Below are positions 10,288-58,427 of a DNA stretch of 64,000 bases, one piece after another (the stretch's first letter is position 1; the number at the start of each line of letters is the position of its first letter). The translations under genes were made by a program, and so were the position numbers. Where the stretch lies: NCBI GenBank assembly GCA_902767135.1, contig CACXGE010000099.1, forward strand, positions 1 to 64,000, given 5' to 3'. The notes beneath the pieces are model-generated. The model was not told the DNA's origin. It saw nothing but the letters and a program-made list of their open reading frames with translations, and ran no database searches. The stretch is from an uncultured Lachnospiraceae bacterium (lineage in GTDB: Bacteria; Bacillota; Clostridia; Lachnospirales; Lachnospiraceae).

Positions 10288-10438
10288 GAAGAGTAGTAAC
10301 AGTTCAGTCAGGTCTGCGCATTTACTGCGCTGAGCGTGCGAAAATGTGAATTTAACAAAAATCGGGCAATTATGCATGCGTAAGCATTGCCCGATTTCGT
10401 AACAGTTCAGCACATTGGCTGAACAGTTACGAAGAGTA
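10288..10438. mobile_element. 135-bp GTAAC-ended non-autonomous element with perfect 8-bp target duplication
   Basis: The element spans 10296-10430. It begins GTAACAGTTCAG and ends CTGAACAGTTAC, which are inverted copies. Immediately outside, GAAGAGTA occurs on both sides (10288-10295 and 10431-10438), a perfect 8-bp direct repeat. Inside is a hairpin, AATCGGGCAAT with ATTGCCCGATT, at about 10360-10396; the last 32 bp are themselves a palindrome like the short elements elsewhere. A second copy at 41810-41943 differs at four positions in the first 105. It has no coding capacity. It sits 47 bases upstream of the DUF1858 start, so it contributes to that gene's leader. Confidence 0.88.
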
Positions 10439-17517: not shown

Positions 17518-17564
17518 GAAACTTCGTAACAGTTTAGCCTATGGCTGAACTGTTACGAAATTTC
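17518..17564. mobile_element. 31-bp GTAAC palindromic element with imperfect 8-bp flanking repeat
   Basis: Element at 17526-17556: arms GTAACAGTTTAGCC and GGCTGAACTGTTAC around a three-base centre. Flanks GAAACTTC (17518) and GAAATTTC (17557) match at seven of eight positions. They can also pair as inverted repeats, which weakens this copy as evidence for duplication. Confidence 0.72.
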
Positions 17565-18319: not shown

Positions 18320-18372
18320 TGATTGAAAATTAGGAATCAGAAATCAGAAATCAGAGATGATAAAGTAAAGAT

Positions 18373-18397
18373 ATCTGTTCCGTGGTTCTGAACAGAT
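18373..18397. repeat. 27-bp-class palindrome, copy 1
   Basis: ATCTGTTC and GAACAGAT arms around CGTGGTTCT. Nearly identical at 44009-44033, and related at 23606-23632. A 31-bp GTAAC element is inserted at its right edge. Confidence 0.6.
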
Positions 18398-18437
18398 AGT
18401 AACAGTTTATCCATAGGCTAAACTGTTGCAACAGATG
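18391..18437. mobile_element. 31-bp GTAAC palindromic element next to another palindrome
   Basis: Element at 18399-18429, arms GTAACAGTTTATCC and GGCTAAACTGTTGC. Flanks AACAGATA (18391-18398) and AACAGATG (18430-18437) match at seven of eight. The left flank is the right arm of the 27-bp palindrome, so this element went into an existing palindrome. Confidence 0.8.
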
Positions 18438-23645: not shown

Positions 23646-23676
23646 GTAACAGTTTAGCCATAGGCTAAACTGTTAC
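23646..23676. mobile_element. 31-bp GTAAC palindromic element, no flanking repeat
   Basis: The most regular copy: GTAACAGTTTAGCC, centre ATA, GGCTAAACTGTTAC, a perfect 14-bp stem. Flanks CCATAGAA and GATAAAAA do not match, so the duplication has decayed or a rearrangement occurred. Confidence 0.7.
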
Positions 23677-32335: not shown

Positions 32336-32665
32336 TTTTGTACATTCCTCCTATTATAAATATAAAAATATGGTTAAGTAAAACAATCGTGGAATTGTCT
32401 TACCTGGTTCCTATGCTTACATTATAAGATAATCATTTTCTAACGTCAAGAACAGAAGTACACAAGAAATGTACTTTTTTGTATACAAAATACAAAACAC
32501 CCGCTTTCCAGAAACATAGTAAATTCCTTGTGAATCTGGTATGGATGTTTTGTAAATATTATGTGACTATTTGGTGTAGTTAAAGGAACAGTTCAGGCAG
32601 GGCTGTGCATTTACTGCGCTGACTGTCTGAACTGTTACTAGATAAATGAATCAAGGAATGGGAGC
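32336..32665. other. Intergenic region between pflB and the pseudouridine synthase gene
   Basis: 330 bases holding the presumed pflB promoter (A/T-rich, minus strand, about 32380-32460) and the 54-bp mobile element at 32585-32638. No further gene seen. Confidence 0.6.
32577..32646. mobile_element. 54-bp GTAAC-type element with 8-bp flanking repeat
   Basis: Element at 32585-32638: GGAACAGTTCAGGCAG at one end (T to G at base 2) and CTGTCTGAACTGTTAC at the other. The centre, GTGCATTTACTGCGCTGA, matches the 5' third of the 135-bp elements. Flanks TAGTTAAA and TAGATAAA match at seven of eight. It appears to be an intermediate-length member of the family. Confidence 0.78.
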
Positions 32666-38796: not shown

Positions 38797-39180
38797 AACC
38801 GTTCCTTTCGTATTATGCTGGATTTCGTTCACACAGTTAGTGGAGCGAGCCATGAATCTTTGTACTAAACATAGTAGCATTGTGTGAAAAAAGATGCAAG
38901 AGAGAAATTTATTCTCTTGTTACTCTGCACACAGGGGGTGTACAATAACCTTTCTTTTTTGTACATTGATAATTGAAGAAAGGCTTTACACCATTTCAAA
39001 TTCAAAAATAATCATCATTTTCTGCTTTTGTTCCGATTTTCCTATCCTTGCGGGAAAGAAACAAGTGTGTTAAACTGTTAGACGAGTGTTTTGGTAACAG
39101 TTTCGTCTATGGCTGAACAGTTACGTGTTTTGTATAAAACGTGAAGAGACAGAGTAAGCTATGTGAGAATGGAGAAAAAT
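38797..39180. other. Intergenic region between the acyltransferase and GH18 genes
   Basis: 384 bases, divergent promoters, containing a 31-bp GTAAC element with perfect target duplication at 39086-39132. A nearby TTAAACTGTTAG at about 39070 looks like a relic half of another copy. No other gene seen. Confidence 0.6.
39086..39132. mobile_element. 31-bp GTAAC palindromic element with perfect 8-bp target duplication
   Basis: Element at 39094-39124, ends GTAACAGTTTCG and GGCTGAACAGTTAC. GTGTTTTG occurs immediately on both sides (39086-39093, 39125-39132), eight of eight. Confidence 0.88.
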
Positions 39181-41092: not shown

Positions 41093-41863
41093 GTGAAAAA
41101 AATGAAAAAGGCAGTTGGTTTAGGGTGCTTTATCCTTGCCATAGCACTACTTTTGTTTTCTAATGAGCAGGTAAAACAGGTGCTATCTGAAGCAAATCTG
41201 ATAAAACAGGATTATGTGATTGTGATTGATCCGGGACATGGAGGAGAGGATTCCGGCAAAGTATCTGTAAATAACACCTATGAAAAGGATATTAATCTTC
41301 AGATTGCCAACAGATTAAAAAAATATTTGGAAAGTTCCGATGTGAAAGTGGTGATGACCAGGGAAGAGGACAAAATGCTATGTGATGCAGGCTCTCTTCA
41401 CAAGAAGGCGGAAGATATGAGAAACCGGTGCAGCCTGATAAACAAAGCCAAGCCGGAATTTACGGTAAGTATACACCAGAACAGCTATACCTCTGGAGAA
41501 ATCAGTGGTGCTCAGGTATTTTACCACACCCAGTCCAAAGAGGGAAAAATCATTGCAGATTGTATTCAGAAACATTTGGTCAGCTATCTTGATAAGGAAA
41601 ATAAAAGGGTTGCCAAGGGCAATGAAAGCTATTATTTGCTGAAAAATACAGAAAACCCAACGGTAATTGTAGAATGTGGTTTCTTGTCCAACAAAGAAGA
41701 GGCAGATAAATTGGAAACCGAAGCATACCAGGACCGGGTTGCCTGGGCAATTCATATGTCAGTGATGGAACTTTTGTCAAGCGGTACAAAGAAGAGTGAA
41801 CAAGTCAATGTAACAGTTCAGTCAGGTCTGCGCATTTACTGCGCTGACCGTGCGAAAATGTGA
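41093..41863 (+). CDS. cwlD: N-acetylmuramoyl-L-alanine amidase, CwlD-like, with element-derived C-terminus
   Basis: Zinc amidase (amidase_3) that removes the peptide from muramic acid, in Bacillus needed to make muramic lactam in spore cortex. Signal anchor at residues 8-25, then zinc ligands in DPGHGGEDSG, EKDINLQ and SIHQNSY, with catalytic Glu in VECGFLSN. Residues 1-239 are native; the last 17 (VTVQSGLRIYCADRAKM) are encoded by a 134-bp mobile element. Removing the element restores GTC AAT TAA, i.e. a stop right after residue 239. The tail lies beyond the fold and probably does no harm. The start is GTG 41093; ATG 41102 is possible. Confidence 0.88.
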   Translation: MKKMKKAVGLGCFILAIALLLFSNEQVKQVLSEANLIKQDYVIVIDPGHGGEDSGKVSVNNTYEKDINLQIANRLKKYLESSDVKVVMTREEDKMLCDAGSLHKKAEDMRNRCSLINKAKPEFTVSIHQNSYTSGEISGAQVFYHTQSKEGKIIADCIQKHLVSYLDKENKRVAKGNESYYLLKNTENPTVIVECGFLSNKEEADKLETEAYQDRVAWAIHMSVMELLSSGTKKSEQVNVTVQSGLRIYCADRAKM

Positions 41864-41951
41864 ATTTCACAAAAATCGGGCAATTTTGCATGCGTAAGCA
41901 TTGCCCGATTTGGTAACAGTTTAGCCTATGGGTGAACTGTTACCAGTCAAT
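41802..41951. mobile_element. 134-bp GTAAC-ended element inserted at the cwlD stop codon
   Basis: Element at 41810-41943, beginning GTAACAGTTCAG and ending GTGAACTGTTAC. Flanks AAGTCAAT (41802-41809) and CAGTCAAT (41944-41951) match at seven of eight. It is a close copy of the element at 10296-10430. It contains the hairpin AATCGGGCAAT/ATTGCCCGATT, and its last 31 bp equal a short element. It supplies the last 17 codons and the stop of cwlD. Confidence 0.87.
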
Positions 41952-44007: not shown

Positions 44008-44034
44008 TATCTGTTCCGTGGCTCTGAACAGATA
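44008..44034. repeat. 27-bp palindrome, copy 3
   Basis: TATCTGTTCC, centre, CTGAACAGATA; one base different from the copy at 18372-18398. It lies between comEB and metG. No flanking duplication. Confidence 0.6.
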
Positions 44035-44073
44035 GGTACCAATAGTTTCGAAGGAGCTTTAAGGAGGATTATT

Positions 44074-49301: not shown

Positions 49302-49359
49302 GTTGTTGTTCACAAGTGCCCTGTGCCTGGTAAATGCTCAGACCTGTCTGAACTGTTAC
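49302..49359 (-). mobile_element. Diverged GTAAC-type element, reverse orientation
   Basis: On the minus strand it reads GTAACAGTTCAGACAGGTCT then GAGCATTTAC, matching the start of the 135-bp elements; the other half has drifted and only GTGAACAAC remains at the far end. No flanking repeat is seen. An old or truncated copy. Confidence 0.6.
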
Positions 49360-51690: not shown

Positions 51691-51737
51691 AAATAATGGT
51701 AACAGTTTAGACTATGGCTTAACTGTTACAAATAATG
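51691..51737. mobile_element. 31-bp GTAAC palindromic element with perfect 8-bp target duplication
   Basis: Element at 51699-51729, arms GTAACAGTTTAGAC and GGCTTAACTGTTAC. AAATAATG occurs immediately on both sides (51691-51698, 51730-51737), eight of eight. Confidence 0.9.
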
Positions 51738-51818
51738 TAATTACGAAATTATTGTTAAATTGTATACATAGCTGTTGATAGATATTTCCTACAGCGAATA
51801 ACAATGATGGGATAAATA

Positions 51819-51991
51819 TGTGGATAATGTGGATAACTTGTTGACATAATTGAAATCCGTGTCGAAAAAGCTCGATATTATAAGAAAAATGGCTCATTAT
51901 AAAAAAGTGGATAAATCAACTTATGTAAACAAGAAAATCCACATGTCTACCCTTCGAAAAATGTTGATAAACATGTGGATAATGTGGATAA
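51819..51991 (+). promoter_or_regulatory. DnaA-box cluster
   Basis: TGTGGATAA, the complement of the consensus DnaA box TTATCCACA, occurs four times exactly: 51819-51827 and 51828-51836 in tandem, 51974-51982 and 51983-51991 in tandem. Near matches are TGTTGATAA at 51962-51970 and AGTGGATAA at 51906-51914. The boxes sit upstream of dnaD and at the 3' side of murC. Either a DnaA-controlled promoter, a DnaA-titration site or part of an origin; there is no dnaA or dnaN in the window. Confidence 0.8.
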
Positions 51992-52003
51992 CTGTTTTTT
52001 ACA

Positions 52004-53383: not shown

Positions 53384-53510
53384 AGATAACATCCTTTCTT
53401 TTTCGATTACAAATACCAATATCGTAACATTTCGTCACACATAATTTTTATTATACTCCATATGAAAAGAAAAATCCATTTAAAAACACATAAAAGTACA
53501 GTAACTGTCA

Positions 53511-53565
53511 CGAAACTTCCGTCTCAAAATTGAGACCACTATAAATGTATTCCATGGAAGTTTCG
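53511..53565. repeat. Nested palindrome upstream of glgC
   Basis: Outer arms CGAAACTTCC and GGAAGTTTCG, inner stem GTCTCA/TGAGAC at 53521-53536. Both the outer GAAACTTC and the inner GTCTCA also occur at 17480-17525, next to a GTAAC element, so these may be related pieces. Confidence 0.5.
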
Positions 53566-53624
53566 TAAAGCTGATGCACACAAATATTCATTACAAAAAA
53601 GTGAAAAAAGTTTGAAGTTTGATG

Positions 53625-58396: not shown

Positions 58397-58427
58397 GTAA
58401 AAGTTCCCCCATGGGCTAAACGGTTAC
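58397..58427. mobile_element. Degenerate 31-bp GTAAC element
   Basis: GTAAAAGTTCCCCC, centre, GGGCTAAACGGTTAC: same length and ends as the others, several substitutions. TATCTGTTCAG at 58379-58389 resembles an arm of the 27-bp palindromes. No matching flanks. Confidence 0.55.

Follow-up and report, generated by a model that had tools for sequence, protein, structure and literature searches.

A 31-bp palindrome with 8-bp target duplications in a Lachnospiraceae genome, a probable ends-only derivative of an ISBst12-type IS66 element

The solo palindrome at 51699 raises the question of whether a unit of only 31 bp can be a mobile element, and of what would move it. It lies between two exact copies of an 8-bp sequence in a 64,000-nt window, by which we mean the whole stretch of DNA analysed. 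The unit consists of two 14-bp terminal inverted repeats placed back to back with 3 bases between them, and as a single strand it folds into a perfect hairpin. The pattern GTAACAGTT-N13-AACTGTTAC is present seven times in the window at up to three mismatches, where shuffled sequences predict 0.01 occurrences, and an eighth copy, a 32-bp version at 10399, is located inside a longer element (Table 1). An earlier note on this DNA had counted eight scattered copies, and had described direct repeats that are exact at 51691 and 39086 and match at seven of eight positions at 17518 and 18391; all of these are as it stated.

Table 1. The 31-bp palindrome, the longer elements that contain it, and their relatives in the window
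Feature	Position	With flanks	Strand	8-bp flanks and remarks
Palindrome starts at ≤3 mismatches	17526, 18399, 23646, 39094, 41913, 51699, 58397			
Solo 31-bp element	17526-17556	17518..17564	.	Duplication 7/8, GAAACTTC/GAAATTTC
Solo 31-bp element	18399-18429	18391..18437	.	Duplication 7/8, AACAGATA/AACAGATG; directly adjoins a different palindromic repeat at 18371-18398
31-bp copy	23646..23676		.	No recognisable duplication (flanks not matching)
Solo 31-bp element	39094-39124	39086..39132	.	Exact duplication GTGTTTTG
Solo 31-bp element	51699-51729	51691-51698 + 51730-51737	.	Exact duplication AAATAATG; genes on either side: Mur ligase and DnaB_2 (Pfam)
Degenerate 31-bp copy	58397..58427		.	No duplication
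135-bp MITE	10296-10430	10288..10438	+	Exact duplication GAAGAGTA; palindromic right end 10399-10430
134-bp MITE	41810-41943	41802..41951	+	Outer duplication 7/8, AAGTCAAT/CAGTCAAT; right end is the 31-bp palindrome 41913-41943
54-bp palindromic relative	32585-32638	32577..32646	.	Flanks TAGTTAAA/TAGATAAA, 7/8; made of MITE left-end sequence
MITE left-end relic	49330..49359		-	No partner end found

Throughout the genome to which the window belongs (an assembly of 2.86 Mb in 171 contigs, ~96% complete) the same pattern occurs at about 102 places, compared with 5 for a reversed control. Eighty-six copies were read together with their flanks, of which 43 are joined to the body of a longer MITE to form a composite and 43 are not; most of the unjoined copies are solo, and another composite family accounts for a few (e.g. 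L059 and L023). The 8-bp sequences to the left and right of the 43 unjoined copies are identical in 11 and match at 7/8 positions in 9, giving 20/43 at ≥7/8, where 0.17 are expected if left flanks are paired with the right flanks of other copies. Flank identity peaks only at a length of 8 (a mean of 0.70, against 0.30-0.43 at lengths 4-7 and 9-12), and the 43 composite copies provide a built-in negative control, with flanks at the 31-bp boundary never matching at more than 4/8 positions. The matching 8-bp flanks are target-site duplications, chance being excluded, and the genome-wide flank count proposed in the earlier note comes out in favour of its reading, with a signal at length 8 only. 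The exact duplications are A+T-rich, and 72/75 copies tested lie outside ORFs of ≥100 aa, whereas a position picked at random in the same loci falls inside such an ORF in ~78% of cases.

In the other half of the flank-read copies (43/86) the palindrome forms the right end of a ~134-bp MITE with a conserved body, and it is at the outer boundaries of these longer elements (133-137 bp) that many have 8-bp flanks matching at 7-8/8. The most common 31-bp sequence is found in 14 solo copies and in 12 MITEs. The 196-bp element L058 has the appearance of a nested insertion, and reads as a partial internal duplication. We also note that the Amidase_3 ORF at 41093-41863 runs into the MITE at 41810-41943, such that its last ~17 codons are element-derived, and that the ORFs of relatives end sooner.

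In its own species the exact sequence family has been strongly amplified, giving 71 forward matches to a stricter pattern compared with 0-1 in each of four other genomes of the same genus. A broader 31-bp pattern matches many genomes, and nearly all of these carry a Lachnospiraceae or Clostridia label; Eisenbergiella porci, Parablautia muri, Hominisplanchenecus murintestinalis and many MAGs are among them. Of the 25 other genomes sampled, 15 have one or more solo 31-bp copies with flanks at ≥7/8, and composites 82-179 bp long that have the same ends and 8-bp duplications are frequent as well. Within the genus, G003 carries ~136-bp MITEs that have a 28-bp palindrome, GTAACAGTTCAGATACCTGAACTGTTAC, as their right end, as well as 28-bp units that stand alone and are flanked by duplications matching at 7/8 and 8/8; G001 and G004 contain MITEs of 147-164 bp whose ends and duplications are the same, together with shortened units of 38 bp and 66 bp flanked by exact duplications. 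No relatives of the palindrome were found in viral contigs, plasmids or phages.

Comparison with these relatives also reveals sites from which the elements are missing. Four same-genus genomes lack the MITE at 41810-41943 at the syntenic position, and a 28-bp solo unit in G003, which sits just downstream of a conserved promoter-like sequence and duplicates the target AACTTATC, is lacking in both G004, which holds AACTTATC once, and G002, which holds AACTTAAC. The intergenic region at 51699 is too diverged among the relatives for a base-level empty-site alignment. The empty sites that the earlier note had called for are seen at genus distance only.

A candidate partner is found in G001, in which contig C9 carries a 1815-bp element (L079, 1154-2968) with the inverted ends GTAACAGTTCAGCC...GGCTGAACTGTTAC, which are the ends of the 31-bp unit; up to 14/14 bases are identical between an arm and the end of an L079-type IS. 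The element codes for a 505-aa transposase and has no other ORF of ≥80 aa within 1154-2968, and so is a single-ORF element without tnpA or tnpB. Its transposase matches DDE_Tnp_IS66 (PF03050) at 76.8 bits (cut-off 23.1), and is a divergent member because its score against NF033517, 157.9 bits, is below the cut-off of 180. L079 is the sole complete copy of the IS, and its flanks (AATTTTAC/GGGGATTT) do not match and form no 8-bp duplication. Its borders are confirmed by further copies, with right ends in G002 (C26 and C19) and left ends in G002 (C17), G312 (C75) and G322 (C222), in which the alignment stops exactly at the same terminal bases and the surroundings differ. All of these further copies are truncated where a contig ends, as repeats in draft assemblies tend to be. 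G317 contains a 142-bp derivative composed of the left 83 and the right 31 bases of an L079-type IS.

The L079 transposase leads by tblastn to ISGst1 and ISGka4, which are annotated as IS66-like with one transposase gene each, have ends GTAACTATTCAGCC, and are flanked by the exact 8-bp duplications AAAAGAAC and AACTCGTC; both elements have the GTAA ends and 8-bp duplications that the earlier note had given as typical of IS66. In ISDge4, a member of the ISBst12 group that has moved in the laboratory, the ends are GTAACTGCTCAGCA/GTGACTACTCAGCA and the repeat is 8 bp long (PMC12898284). Transposase type, ends and duplication length therefore all indicate the ISBst12 group of IS66, and the likely mover of the 31-bp units is a single-ORF element of this type and not a tnpABC locus. 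Like this group, the units have ends starting with GTAAC, sharing 12/14 bases with the ISGst1/ISGka4 end and 11/14 with one ISDge4 end, they are flanked by 8-bp duplications, and their presumed partner has a single DDE_Tnp_IS66 ORF; they differ in that the window elements are gene-free and consist of two ends only, and in that the partner comes from relatives and not from their own genome.

The earlier note had suggested looking for an IS66-type locus whose ends start with GTAACAGTT, and an element with such ends does exist in relatives, but it has one ORF instead of tnpA/B/C and is not seen in the genome that carries the window, where searches of the 171-contig, ~96% complete draft by family, protein and DNA found no L079-type IS; repeats of this kind break contigs in such a draft. 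The sole PF03050 match in that genome (C56, 30 bits) lacks the ends in question and resembles a different DDE transposase, and GTAACAGTT ends are also missing from those IS66 elements of other palindrome-bearing genomes whose tnpC-like genes are full-length (L174-L201). With protein P0001 as query at a strict threshold of E≤1e-60, no match was obtained among 299 genomes of the family, mostly one per genus; no relatives of the transposase were found in viral contigs, and no solved structure matches it by sequence.

We conclude that the 31-bp palindrome probably derives from a single-ORF ISBst12-type IS66 element, of which it keeps only the ends, and that as a non-autonomous unit it is probably moved by the transposase of that element. 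The copies themselves, the 8-bp duplications at their outer boundaries, the ends held in common with the IS66-type element of relatives and the absence at syntenic sites form the direct basis for this reading, and the earlier proposal of ends-only elements moved by an IS66-type transposase was largely right, given the shared ends, the duplications and the genus-distance empty sites. A full IS encoded elsewhere would supply the transposase, which would recognise GTAACAGTTYAGCC at both arms and move or copy the 31-bp unit to a site between genes, mostly rich in A+T, where a staggered cut of the target followed by fill-in would generate the 8-bp duplication. When the outer pair of ends is taken, the MITE would move, and when the inner pair is taken, the 31-bp unit. 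That an L079-type transposase acts on so short a unit is what we infer from these relationships.

Whether the solo copies travel by themselves is a narrower matter, and here we lean only slightly towards the view that the 31-bp and 28-bp units transpose independently, being made of just two back-to-back transposase ends. At 31 bp, a duplex does not bend easily enough for both ends to fit one ordinary transpososome, and we speculate that synapsis could possibly occur through hairpin or cruciform extrusion or through pairing between copies.

The principal alternative, unlikely in our judgement and one that the earlier note had not considered, is that only the MITE has ever moved and that the solo 31-bp copies are its in-place deletion products, in the manner of solo LTRs. 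The 134-bp MITEs read do have a suitable layout, in which a 9-12-bp sequence at the outer left end recurs in direct orientation, ~103 bp away, as the inner arm of the palindromic right end, and the stretch between can form hairpins; slippage between the two direct repeats would drop the body and leave the palindrome inside the old 8-bp duplication of the MITE. The sharing of the main 31-bp sequence between solo copies and MITEs is in keeping with such a route, as is the occurrence of both together in several genomes. Set against this is a rare loop variant, GCCGGGGGC, which is present in two solo copies at unrelated sites and in 0/43 MITEs, and because of this distribution movement from solo to solo is favoured. 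Furthermore, G001 contains a solo 31-bp copy (L078) with an exact 8-bp duplication, even though the MITEs read in that genome do not have the palindromic right end, and the ratio of solo copies to MITEs differs among genomes, from 0:8 in Eisenbergiella porci to 2:0 in two others, albeit in small samples. None of these three observations is conclusive, and independent movement and in-place deletion may both be acting. We infer that the 31-bp unit moves by itself and is not simply left behind when the MITE body is lost, but some of the solo copies could be deletion products.

It is improbable that the mover is instead a transposase of some other family that makes 8-bp duplications, or a REP/RAYT-like hairpin mechanism, with the likeness to IS66 ends arising by coincidence or end capture. 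The failure to detect an L079-type element in the own genome would fit such an origin, as would the perfect single-strand hairpin. Against it stand the GTAA start, the exact 8-bp duplications of the named IS66 relatives, and an IS66-type element that, in several genomes, has ends identical to those of the unit over fourteen bases; fixed 8-bp duplications, moreover, are not known from REP-type repeats. That the palindromes are immobile regulatory or terminator hairpins of the host, with flanking repeats arising by chance, is scarcely credible, since, although the copies are nearly all intergenic and fold well, the excess of matching flanks at a length of precisely 8 bp, the species-specific amplification and the absence from syntenic sites in relatives all contradict it, no T-run follows the hairpin at 51699, and an Rfam search of the window gave no match.

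With the ISBst12-type origin as the preferred reading, the units can be compared with other small bacterial repeats. MITEs derived from IS elements are already familiar, and bacterial examples in review are ~100-170 bp, such as RUP, which is 107 bp and linked to IS630-Spn1 (PMC2229807). A length of 31 bp is far below this, as the earlier note had remarked. RUP resembles the units described here in being non-autonomous and intergenic, in sharing ends with an IS, and in being present in about a hundred copies (PMC2229807). The units differ from MITEs of this type in their length of 31 bp (28 bp in G003) as against about 100-170 bp, in having only 3 bases between the ends, and in their 8-bp duplication, whereas RUP inserts at TA. 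REP and REPIN sequences are likewise very short, dispersed, intergenic palindromes of high copy number, but the units here have fixed 8-bp duplications and IS66-type ends. We found no description of 28-31-bp IS66-type units in the open-access literature.

If the units do move independently, few mobile DNA units known from bacteria would be as small, and their synapsis would have to be unusual. The smallest substrate that a DDE transposase uses in nature would then be two ends with three bases between them, an arrangement not readily fitted by standard models of the paired-end complex, and a simple rule for MITE formation would be suggested, in which a palindromic end module either moves alone or carries neighbouring DNA with it. 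Short, intergenic and species-specific copies are a ready source of changes to promoters and 3' ends in Lachnospiraceae, and units of 31 bp are likely to be missed by ordinary repeat or IS annotation.

Several other repeats are seen beside these elements or in the same genomes. A second repeat body, TTTGTGTGCATCAGCTTTACGAAACTTCC...GAAGTTTC, is present in the window at 53503-53585 and also at L059 (1400-1540), L023 (1-120) and L048 (2843-2925), and is joined to varied end modules, namely the 31-bp palindrome, GTATCTGTTC... or GTGACAGTTAC, which suggests that end modules are exchangeable. The palindrome GTATCTGTTCCGTRGTTCTGAACAGATAC has separate copies in the window at 18371-18398 and 44009-44038, and at L020 (594-632) it serves the MITE body as an alternative right end. 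Other genomes contain 27-28-bp palindromes, GTAACTGTTC...GAACAGTTAC, with 8-bp flanks matching at 7/8 (L088, 5248-5274; L116, 1778-1805; L111, 6630-6657), and these could be another ends-only family. A 25-bp unit, GTAACAGTTCAGCCTTGACGGTTAC, at L306 1501-1525 (contig C25 of G004) has flanks TATTCCTT/TATTTCTT matching at 7/8 and is possibly an even shorter element, although as a single case it may be due to chance. Lastly, a 28-bp repeat, GATAAAYATGTGGATAATGTGGATAACT, occurs at 51811-51838 and 51966-51993, upstream of the DnaB_2 gene, and is kept in same-genus relatives; it contains a DnaA-box-like sequence and may be a DnaA-binding site.
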